Position numbers and translations under genes: made by a program. A model generated the notes under the pieces. That model ran no database searches. It was given only the letters and a program-made list of their open reading frames with translations, and had not been told where the DNA came from. A DNA stretch of 64,000 nucleotides from Pseudidiomarina indica. Its GTDB lineage: Bacteria; Pseudomonadota; Gammaproteobacteria; Enterobacterales; Alteromonadaceae. Every line of letters begins with the position of its first letter. The first letter of the stretch is position 1. This document shows positions 22,367 through 42,294 of this stretch, in pieces. The stretch is from NCBI RefSeq assembly GCF_900104245.1, contig NZ_FMXN01000008.1, forward strand, positions 1 through 64,000. The letters run 5' to 3'.

Positions 22367-22561
22367 TTAATCAGCAACCAGCACCATGCATTCAATGGGA
22401 CAAACCGGGATACAAGCCGGCTCATCATAATAGCCCACGCACTCGGTGCATTTGTTGGGATCGACTTGGTAATGCTCGCGCCCCATGCTAATGGCTTCAT
22501 TGGGGCACTCTGGCACACACATATCGCAATTGATGCAATCACTCTCAATGACTACTGGCAT
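22367..22561 (-). CDS. yfhL: YfhL-type 2[4Fe-4S] ferredoxin
   Basis: A 64-residue ferredoxin. The first cluster motif is CINCDMCVPECP, and the second begins CTECVGYYDEPAC with the six-to-eight-residue insertion typical of the Alvin/YfhL type and ends PVCPIEC. It overlaps the 3' end of trhP by 17 bases, which strongly suggests that it supplies electrons or cluster to TrhP, an inference from coupling. It is followed by a 124-base gap before gcdH on the same strand. Confidence 0.95.
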   Translation of the reverse strand: MPVVIESDCINCDMCVPECPNEAISMGREHYQVDPNKCTECVGYYDEPACIPVCPIECMVLVAD

Positions 22562-23879
22562 CGGTTACCTCCACGACAGGGATAGGGGTTGGTGTTGTGA
22601 CTTGCTTAATCAGCATGCTGACAGCCGCTTCGGCAGCGGTTAATGCAACTGGAAGTTGCACCTGAACTTGACGTCCCGCCCCTGCGGCACGGGTCAGAGG
22701 CTGCTTGCTGGCATCGAACATTGTGTCGAGCTGAAAGGTGATATTGCCCGATGGCTTCATCAGGATTAATTGATCCCCCACCGCAAAGGCATTTTTCACG
22801 TCAACCCACGCTAGGGTGCCATCTTGCTGCAGAATTTCGCCAACGAACAGTTGTTCACCTTGGCTATGACTGGTGTCGTAATTTTGAGTTTCATTGGGCA
22901 CATGGCGGCGTAAAAAGCCTTCCGTGAATCCGCGGTTTGCCATGCCTTCCAATTCGGTTAATAACGCTGGGTTAAAGGGCTTGCCGGACACTGCATCATC
23001 GATAGCTTGGCGATACACTTGGGCAGTTCGCGCAACGTAGTAGGGCGATTTTGTTCGGCCTTCAATTTTCAATGAATGAACGCCGATCCGTGTTAATGCT
23101 TCGACGTGCTGAATTCCCCTTAAATCTTTGGAGTTCATGATGTAGGTGCCGTGCAAATCTTCATCCATCAACATATATTCACCCGGCCGTTGCGGCTCCG
23201 TGAGGAGCACCGGGGTATCAATGGGGTTGAATTGACCGACTTCATCTTCGGCTGCGGCATGAACTTGATAGGGCCAACGACAGGAGTTGGTGCAGGCACC
23301 TTGGTTCGGATCGCGCTTATTAAAGTAGCCAGAGAGTAAACAGCGTCCTGAATAGGCCATGCAAAGTGCGCCGTGCACGAATACTTCCAATTCCATATCA
23401 GGGCAATGCTCCCGTATTTCCGCAATTTCACGGACTTCTAATTCACGGGATAAGATGACGCGCTCAATGCCTTGCTGCTGCCAAAATTTAACCGCAGCCC
23501 AGTTGACGGTATTCGCCTGCACGCTTAAGTGCAGAACTTGTTCGGGAAAGTGAGTGCGTAGCAACATCACAATGCCCGGATCAGACACAATCAAAGCGTC
23601 GGGTTGCAGCGCAACCACTGGCTTCATGTCTTCAACAAAGGTGCGTAACTTCGCGTTATGAGGAGCGATATTGACGACCACATAAAATTTCTTACCCAAC
23701 GCGTGAGCTTCGGCGATGCCTTGCGCTAAACGGGGTAAATCAAATTCGTTATTACGAACACGCAAGCTGTAACGCGGTTGGCCTGCATAAACGGCGTCTG
23801 CCCCGTAGGCAAAAGCAAGTCGCATGGCTTTTAAGCTGCCCGCAGGGCTGAGTAATTCTGGTTGGGGTAGTGACGACAT
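22545..23879 (-). CDS. trhP: tRNA 5-hydroxyuridine synthesis protein TrhP (peptidase U32 family, YegQ)
   Basis: A 444-residue U32-family protein. In E. coli, TrhP makes 5-hydroxyuridine at wobble position 34 of tRNAs by an oxygen-independent route that uses prephenate. The N-terminus ELLSPAGSLKAMRLAFAYGADAVYAG and the segment VFVHGALCMAYSGRC with further cysteines (NQGACTNSCRWPY) are family marks and suggest an Fe-S cluster. The start at 23879 follows GAAGGTG; the frame is open 10 codons further up. A canonical FNR box lies 78-91 bases upstream. Confidence 0.93.
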   Translation of the reverse strand: MSSLPQPELLSPAGSLKAMRLAFAYGADAVYAGQPRYSLRVRNNEFDLPRLAQGIAEAHALGKKFYVVVNIAPHNAKLRTFVEDMKPVVALQPDALIVSDPGIVMLLRTHFPEQVLHLSVQANTVNWAAVKFWQQQGIERVILSRELEVREIAEIREHCPDMELEVFVHGALCMAYSGRCLLSGYFNKRDPNQGACTNSCRWPYQVHAAAEDEVGQFNPIDTPVLLTEPQRPGEYMLMDEDLHGTYIMNSKDLRGIQHVEALTRIGVHSLKIEGRTKSPYYVARTAQVYRQAIDDAVSGKPFNPALLTELEGMANRGFTEGFLRRHVPNETQNYDTSHSQGEQLFVGEILQQDGTLAWVDVKNAFAVGDQLILMKPSGNITFQLDTMFDASKQPLTRAAGAGRQVQVQLPVALTAAEAAVSMLIKQVTTPTPIPVVEVTDASSH

Positions 23880-23930
23880 AACACCTTCATGCATACTGCA
23901 ATCATGCAAAGCAAATTAACGGTCGGGTAG

Positions 23931-23970
23931 TTTATACCGTGACCGTTAAAGGGGTGTTGATGCGGATCAA
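23931..23970 (-). promoter_or_regulatory. FNR-dependent promoter of trhP-yfhL
   Basis: TTGAT-GCGG-ATCAA at 23957-23970 is a perfect FNR box. On the minus strand a TATAAA -10 element lies at 23931-23936, which puts the box centre about 40 bases before the expected transcription start, the class II activator position. The box overlaps the narL stop codon by 4 bases. Confidence 0.75.
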
Positions 23971-24626
23971 GATTTATCCGTGTGCTGCTCGTGGTTGACC
24001 ATCCATACAGCGGCTTCAACACGGGAGCGCAACCCTAACTTTTTCAGTAAGTGTTTGACATGAACTTTGACCGTGCCATCAGAAATATCGAGCTCACGAG
24101 CAATGAGCTTATTACTCATTCCTTTTGCGATCAGCTCAAGAATCTCACGCTCCCGATTGGTGAGGGTATCTAACTTGCTAGAGGTGGGTGCGGAGGGGCG
24201 GCGTAAGGCGGTGGCGAGAACTTCGGTAATGGCTTCACTTAAGACCATTTTGCCATCAATGGCGCGGATAATTTGCTCCATCAATAACTCAGGATCCATG
24301 TCTTTCAACAAGTAGCCATCTGCCCCATGAGTAATCGCAGCCACAATATCTTCATCGGCATCTGACACAGTGAGCATCACGATCCGTGATGTGACGCCTT
24401 GATCACGCATGCGTTTGAGCGTTTCAATGCCGTCCATGCCTTGCATGTTGAGATCAAGAATAATGAGATCCGGGTCAAGTTCTGCTGCTTGGACGAGAGC
24501 ATCGGCACCATTGCTGCATTCGGCAATGACGGCTAAATCGTCTTCCATCGAAATTAGCTGTTTTAACCCCTTCCGTAATAACGGATGGTCGTCGACAAGC
24601 ATAATGGTCGCTGGATTGTCAGACAT
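23967..24626 (-). CDS. narL: Nitrate/nitrite response regulator NarL
   Basis: A 219-residue response regulator. The receiver domain has the acid pair D12/D13 (LVDDHPL), phospho-acceptor D58 (IILDLNMQGMDG), Thr in VMLTVSD and Lys in GYLLKD. The C-terminal LuxR-type HTH (about 150-210) contains LTNREREILELIAKGMSNKLIA. It should control nitrate-responsive genes in answer to NarX, whose gene is 1.5 kb away on the same strand with narK inserted between in the opposite direction. Confidence 0.94.
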   Translation of the reverse strand: MSDNPATIMLVDDHPLLRKGLKQLISMEDDLAVIAECSNGADALVQAAELDPDLIILDLNMQGMDGIETLKRMRDQGVTSRIVMLTVSDADEDIVAAITHGADGYLLKDMDPELLMEQIIRAIDGKMVLSEAITEVLATALRRPSAPTSSKLDTLTNREREILELIAKGMSNKLIARELDISDGTVKVHVKHLLKKLGLRSRVEAAVWMVNHEQHTDKS

Positions 24627-35165: not shown

Positions 35166-35179
35166 CTGATAGAGATCAA
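35166..35179 (-). promoter_or_regulatory. FNR box of hemN
   Basis: CTGAT-AGAG-ATCAA matches the FNR consensus in 9 of 10 positions. A TATTTC -10-like element (minus strand, 35142-35147) lies downstream. The same 16-base string CTGATAGAGATCAAAA recurs upstream of fnr. Confidence 0.72.
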
Positions 35180-41566: not shown

Positions 41567-42271
41567 CTACTGAGCCATTTCGCGTAAGCGGAGTGGCTCG
41601 ATAATCTCAACCAGTTTGTTTTGGACTTCGATGACCCCTTCTTGCTGCAGGTTCGATAGAATGCGGCTGATGGTTTCGACGGATAGCCCTAGATAGTTGC
41701 CAATATCGGCCCGTGTCATGGTAAGACGATAAGAACGGCTCGATAGACCTCGCTCCTTGAAGCGTTCTGCTAAGGTGACTAAGAAGTGTGCAACCCGTTG
41801 TTGCGCTGTGCGATTGTTCAGGGTGCCGAGAAGTTGTTTGCTGGTGAAAATCTCACCGCTCATCAGGCGCCATAATTGACGACGTAACCCCGGCATTTGC
41901 TCGGCTAATTCATCCAGCGCAGTGATTGGAATTTCACACAACATACTGGTCTCAAGGGCCTGCGTATAGCTGCGGTGCTCATTTTCTGAAAGTCCATCAA
42001 AGCCAATAACATCACCGGGTAGGTGAAAATCAATAATTTGCTCTACCCCATTGTCGTCAATGGTATAGGATTTCAGCGAGCCGCTCCGCACCGCATATAA
42101 AAACTTGAGGGGTGCCCCTGCATGAACCAAAATATCGCGTTTTTGAATCGGCTTATGCCGCTGAATGATGGTATCCAGTCGAGCCATGCCTTCTTGATCA
42201 AGCTGATAAGGCAAACACAGCGCTGCCATACTGCAATTTTGACAATGAATGTGTGAGGTCATGTTTGTCAT
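41567..42271 (-). CDS. fnr: FNR-type oxygen-sensing transcription regulator
   Basis: A 234-residue CRP/FNR-family regulator. The [4Fe-4S] ligands are C10, C13, C19 (HCQNCSMAALC) and C112. The cyclic-nucleotide-like domain and dimer helix follow, and the HTH recognition helix has the FNR-specific VETISR. It switches on anaerobic genes when oxygen is absent. The start at 42271 has an AGGAAA site; the in-frame ATG at 42262 is possible. An FNR box lies 10 bases upstream, which suggests autoregulation. Confidence 0.95.
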   Translation of the reverse strand: MTNMTSHIHCQNCSMAALCLPYQLDQEGMARLDTIIQRHKPIQKRDILVHAGAPLKFLYAVRSGSLKSYTIDDNGVEQIIDFHLPGDVIGFDGLSENEHRSYTQALETSMLCEIPITALDELAEQMPGLRRQLWRLMSGEIFTSKQLLGTLNNRTAQQRVAHFLVTLAERFKERGLSSRSYRLTMTRADIGNYLGLSVETISRILSNLQQEGVIEVQNKLVEIIEPLRLREMAQ

Positions 42272-42280
42272 GAGGATTTC

Positions 42281-42294
42281 CTGATAGAGATCAA
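42281..42294 (-). promoter_or_regulatory. FNR box upstream of fnr
   Basis: CTGAT-AGAG-ATCAA, identical to the box at hemN. It is only 10-23 bases before the fnr start codon, too close for activation, so repression of fnr by its own product is more likely. Confidence 0.65.

Follow-up and report, generated by a model that had tools for sequence, protein, structure and literature searches.

The trhP gene in the window (the whole 64-kb stretch of DNA analyzed here) carries a predicted FNR site that is well placed and evolutionarily kept. At low oxygen FNR very probably activates the trhP-yfhL pair from this site, with tRNA U34 hydroxylation then passing from TrhO to TrhP. The evidence below shows where the site lies and how it is spaced, that it is conserved, that the box co-occurs with trhO, and which genes are involved.

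The FNR dyad and the genes around it

The dyad TTGATCCGCATCAA lies between narL and trhP at 23957–23970 on the minus strand, which is the trhP coding strand (TTGATGCGGATCAA in forward-strand letters), and it matches TTGATN4ATCAA with no mismatches; the perfect FNR box that the initial annotation had claimed in front of a trhP-yfhL pair is thus confirmed, and the pair itself is genuine. It is the sole exact match in the window; seven matches are present when one mismatch is allowed, as compared with 3.08 ± 1.89 in shuffled sequences. The dyad and the narL stop codon have bases in common. A plus-strand gene was rejected as the target of the dyad, since the plus side runs antisense into narL.

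Gene identities are those for which the NCBIfam cut-offs were passed. The trhP gene (22545–23879, minus strand) scores 706.6 bits against NF011996 (cut-off 534) and is set apart from UbiU, against which it reaches 180.9 bits with a cut-off of 440; judged by these scores, its product is a prephenate-dependent tRNA U34 hydroxylase. A yfhL-type 4Fe-4S ferredoxin gene (22367–22561, minus strand; NF033683, 94.4 bits, cut-off 86) starts within the 3′ end of trhP. Such a ferredoxin gene is the next one after trhP at all 22 loci of the genus and at 44 of the 80 other loci with enough flanking sequence, and its product presumably serves TrhP. Immediately upstream of the box is narL (23967–24626, minus strand; NF007935, 334.2 bits, cut-off 250). 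The same genome encodes TrhO (G000:C6; NF001133, 336.2 bits, cut-off 170).

The likely regulator is encoded 18 kb from trhP by fnr (41567–42271, minus strand, start codon inferred; NF008365, 314.7 bits, cut-off 228), and the protein has the four cysteines and an ETISR helix. DNR- and NnrR-like regulators read dyads much like those of FNR, and genes for denitrification are present in the window (norB-, norR- and nar-like, identified by eye), so a nitric oxide-sensing member of the CRP/FNR family might use the site instead. However, when the window FNR is used as query its own genome gives a single match at E ≤ 1e−20, a threshold that distant members may escape, and use of the site by such a regulator is very unlikely.

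The 2.2-Mb genome contains 18 exact dyads and no copy of a reversed control pattern. Twelve of them fall within reading frames of 120 amino acids or more and six do not. The latter are the trhP box, those before ompW-, MauG- and nsrR-like genes (none of which reached the equivalog cut-offs), and those before a PAS-like and a GNAT-like frame that were identified by eye. Another dyad (L306), inside a frame, is 336 bp before ccoN, which passed its cut-off; ccoN, ompW, peroxidase and NO-response genes are usual FNR targets. Two one-mismatch boxes of the same sequence lie elsewhere in the window, CTGATAGAGATCAA at 35166–35179 on the plus strand, 52 bp before hemN, and TTGATCTCTATCAG at 42281–42294 on the minus strand, about 10 bp before the inferred fnr start; it is likely from their positions that FNR controls hemN and that fnr is autoregulated. 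At least ten of the 18 exact dyads are inside reading frames and are probably there by chance, and the same might be supposed of the trhP box. At the density found in this genome, however, an exact box would be expected in a given 140 bp only about 0.1% of the time, and the relatives and decoys described below contradict a chance origin, which is hardly credible and was rejected.

Promoter geometry

A −10 element, TAAACT, lies at 23929–23934 on the minus strand, and its 22-bp gap to the box is kept in relatives. It predicts a transcription start near 23922 and would put the dyad center at −41.5, which is the activating position of class II sites. The initial annotation had put the box about 40 bases before the start, in class II position, and this agrees with the predicted −41.5, but the TATAAA that it took as the −10 (23931–23936, minus strand), 20 bp from the box and giving a center at −39.5, is off by 2 bp; the register was shifted because gaps of 22 and 21 bp are those kept in relatives. 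Of the 21 scored loci of the genus, 13 have a −10 element of at least 4 bits at gap 22 and 8 have one at gap 21, so that all 21 have one or the other, and at other gaps between 10 and 35 bp elements of this strength occur only at 34 (two) and 35 (one). Outside the genus they peak at gap 22 as well (7 of 40 boxes, with four at gap 21 and two at gap 23), and a clear −10 at gaps 21–23 accompanies only 13 of these 40. A simple sigma-70 scan of 23600–24300 found no promoter; this was not counted against the site, since the promoter would be activator-dependent and without a −35 element.

The −10 region is surrounded by an inverted repeat, TTAACGGTC / GACCGTTAA (23916–23949, minus strand), with 9-bp arms, a predicted folding energy of −18.9 kcal/mol and a z of −4.5. 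TATAAA sits in the terminal loop of this stable hairpin, a feature absent from the initial annotation, and the hairpin could possibly form in the narL or the trhP transcript. Its core, GGTATAARNTACC, is a partial palindrome that spans the −10 and is present in 9 of the 22 genus loci, including L018–L025. These features are what might be expected if FNR or another dyad-acting factor at the −10 repressed trhP, or if the hairpin and not the box were the conserved element. Both ideas are highly improbable: −41.5 is an activating position, and the outer arms were not seen in any of the genus relatives inspected by eye, whereas the box and the −10 were. The hairpin as the conserved element was rejected on the latter ground. 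The GGTATAARNTACC palindrome, which in the window is enclosed by a 9-bp inverted repeat, could be read as an operator, as a hairpin or as simple inheritance.

Conservation within the genus

A full trhP gene is present in 22 of 26 genomes of the genus, and the box, with at most one mismatch, precedes it in all 22 (30–200 bp before the conserved PEL codon of trhP). The four exceptions are G018, which has a fragment, G020, which has a ubiU match only, and G001 and G014, which have neither gene. At E ≤ 1e−20 no fnr match was obtained in G001, while the fnr of G014 is divergent (55% identity), and this coincidence was counted in favor of FNR as the regulator. G010, G016 and G023 have trhP and no ubiU match, so the two U32 genes have been lost separately.

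The genes upstream of the box are of at least four kinds: narL, a ThDP-enzyme-like gene, a divergent moaA-like gene and a divergent thiopurine-methyltransferase-like gene (all except narL identified by eye). The retention of the box next to at least four different genes indicates that its presence in the genus is not due to chance. In several relatives of one subgroup the box lies within the end of the upstream gene, so part of the conservation there could be coding. The variety of neighbors also bears on whether trhP might be expressed mainly by read-through from narL, as part of the nitrate regulon, with the box incidental or fine-tuning. In the window narL is directly upstream on the same strand, and a simple scan found no terminator-like site between the two genes. 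But the box is also retained behind other upstream neighbors, some of them divergent, and at one narL locus (L034) a strong hairpin, recognized by eye, separates narL from the box; read-through as the main route is very unlikely.

Seven of the 22 genus loci (L027–L029, L031–L033 and L038) have a NarL-like 7-2-7 dyad (for example TACCCCTTTAGGGATA) about 120–150 bp before the trhP PEL codon, most or all of them with the divergent moaA-like neighbor; a hairpin is an alternative reading of these repeats. No NarL-type 7-2-7 site was found at the trhP locus of the window.

All 26 genomes have a trhO homolog. FNR control of trhO in the genus was rejected, as none of the 26 trhO promoters has an FNR box with at most one mismatch within 200 bp.

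Distribution of the box in Gammaproteobacteria

The wider survey covered 279 gammaproteobacterial trhP loci, 22 from the genus and the rest from draws at the family, order and class levels; they are a fetched subset of the trhP genes drawn, and the 53 class-draw loci are all of that draw except two already included. A second batch, picked by genus once the first results were known, over-sampled some box-rich groups, and counts per genus and per family are given below for this reason. The stretch searched was 15–300 bp at first and was narrowed to 30–200 bp once the first scan had been made; two boxes at loci from genomes without trhO (2 of 37 such loci, at −201 and −253) dropped out in this way. 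That first scan, of 157 loci over 15–300 bp, gave 61 boxes against 0–6 for decoys; it left out 15 loci that failed the start pattern, and tblastn later placed all 279.

The strict box (at most one mismatch) is present at 96 of the 279 loci and the exact dyad at 33, while 19 scrambled dyads of the same composition gave a mean of 2.6 and a maximum of 8 over the same loci, with at most one exact match. The initial annotation had named the presence of the box in relatives as a check, and the box is indeed found at all 22 loci of the genus, at 72 of 107 in the family, and at 24 loci in six other families, seven families in all. The genus-level pattern thus holds; its scope is much wider than the genus, and about half of the loci in trhO-bearing genomes are without the box. 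When the half-degenerate TTG[CT]GN4ATCAA is counted too, the family figure is 90 of 107. The TTGCGN4ATCAA form occurs upstream of trhP at 22 loci (L155, L157–L159, L161, L162, L168 and others), all in trhO-bearing genomes, and other orders of the first half at no more than two; 14 of the 22 have no strict box.

Loci of named species have the strict box in 33 of 80 cases, with 12/12 in Pseudidiomarina, 7/8 in records named Idiomarina, 4/4 each in Marinomonas and Pectobacterium, 2/3 each in Erwinia and Colwellia, 1/3 in Shewanella and 1/1 in Marinicella. None was found before trhP in Buttiauxella (0/6), Acinetobacter (0/7) or E. coli K-12, the last of which was fetched separately from the 80, and the class-level draw gave no box in its 53 loci (7 from genomes with trhO and 46 from genomes without). 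The absence of the box from E. coli K-12 and from many trhO-bearing loci means that FNR control of trhP is not general.

Association of the box with trhO

The box is found at 96 of 189 loci from genomes that have trhO and at none of 90 from genomes that do not. The direction is the same by genus (32/70 vs. 0/83, with the box in at least half of the loci of a genus), by family (7/21 vs. 0/58, with the box at any locus), and outside the window's own family (24/83 vs. 0/89), and it becomes 114/189 vs. 0/90 when half-degenerate sites (TTGCG, TTGTG) are counted with strict ones. Among order-draw genomes outside the family that do have fnr, the box occurs in 24 of 76 with trhO and in none of 35 without; since the contrast persists there, missing FNR cannot account for the link. 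Neither can the base rate, as decoys are low in both groups (means of 1.8 in 167 trhO-bearing loci outside the genus and 0.7 in 90 loci without trhO). The 93 of 189 trhO-bearing loci without a strict box include 12/12 of family f11, 11/12 of family f6 and 7/7 of the class draw. The idea of a dual-enzyme logic, with TrhO set against TrhP, is supported by this co-occurrence. Independent contrasts on TrhP trees differ in at most five cases, all in the expected direction, and the smallest p is 0.06; the coupling is strong in counts and unproven on the tree.

For the order and family draws trhO was called with the E. coli protein at E ≤ 1e−25, and for the class draw with the protein of the window species at E ≤ 1e−25; in the genus the threshold was E ≤ 0.001, with all best matches below 1e−37. 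A more distant TrhO could escape these thresholds. The class draw of 150 genomes has trhP in 55 (E ≤ 1e−80), trhO in 55 (E ≤ 1e−25) and both in nine, as compared with about 20 expected from the product, so most owners in that draw have only one of the two genes.

Relation to known systems

FNR-type control is familiar from HemN and HemF and from the class III and class I ribonucleotide reductases, where an oxygen-independent enzyme replaces an oxygen-dependent one. These swaps are alike in their oxygen chemistry and differ in that they do not concern RNA modification. By its predicted site trhP would join these FNR-controlled anaerobic isoenzymes, with tRNA modification as an unusual output.

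The closest parallel is ubiTUV, the oxygen-independent ubiquinone genes, whose control by FNR is established in E. coli (PMC10470549) and whose FNR motifs have been surveyed across Pseudomonadota (PMC11707229). There, too, FNR sites precede genes for U32-family Fe-S proteins that replace oxygen-dependent hydroxylases, but the product is a quinone and not a tRNA base, and the E. coli sites were tested by mutation. The accessible portions of these two papers do not name trhP together with FNR. The dual TrhP/TrhO pathway was described in E. coli (Sakai 2019, PMC6599085) with the same two enzymes, one of them oxygen-dependent; in contrast to the window, no FNR box precedes trhP in E. coli K-12, and "FNR" is absent from the main text of that paper. 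IscR activates trhO in E. coli (PMC8561392), which likewise puts one member of the hydroxylase pair under an Fe-S regulator, though it is the other gene and another regulator. In a regulon reconstruction from 2010, the genes assigned to DNR in alphaproteobacteria include a U32 peptidase whose neighbor encodes a lipid carrier (PMC2908626), and this neighbor suggests that it is probably ubiU or ubiV; another U32 peptidase, assigned to NnrR and adjacent to a sterol-binding protein (PMC6710368), looks like the same kind. The initial annotation was not aware of any description of FNR control of trhP, and we likewise found no statement of it in the literature searched, the coverage of which left subscription journals mostly outside.

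Proposed mechanism and its consequences

FNR holds a [4Fe-4S] cluster and binds DNA only at low oxygen, and TrhP also bears a [4Fe-4S] cluster (PMC11138216). TrhO needs oxygen and TrhP does not (PMC6599085), in agreement with the initial annotation. When oxygen is scarce, [4Fe-4S]-FNR would bind TTGATCCGCATCAA at −41.5 and switch on trhP-yfhL at a class II promoter. TrhP, as an oxygen-independent Fe-S enzyme, would then replace the oxygen-using TrhO in the 5-hydroxylation of wobble uridine 34. That FNR binds and activates here, that expression responds to oxygen, that trhP and yfhL share a transcript and that tRNA is affected are predictions from sequence. The cells thus probably exchange one tRNA-modifying enzyme for the other when oxygen is exhausted. 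In this sample the box occurs only where trhO is present, plausibly because TrhP can be confined to low oxygen there without loss of the modification in air.

In E. coli the Leu3 and Pro3 tRNAs are preferred by TrhP and mainly the remaining four by TrhO (PMC6599085). A broader and more tentative proposal, which we consider possible but less likely to be right than wrong, builds on this difference in preference: oxygen would determine the chemistry at the wobble base, with TrhP restricted by FNR to low oxygen in TrhO lineages, so that the set of xo5U tRNAs, and with it the reading of G-ending codons, would shift with oxygen as an oxygen-responsive decoding program; trhP FNR sites may have arisen or survived only where TrhO was available. 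With FNR control of trhP as proposed here, a tRNA-modifying enzyme would join the genes under direct oxygen control by FNR, and there would be a reason why many bacteria have two seemingly redundant hydroxylases. It would also become testable whether the pattern of tRNA modification, and hence codon reading, varies with oxygen.
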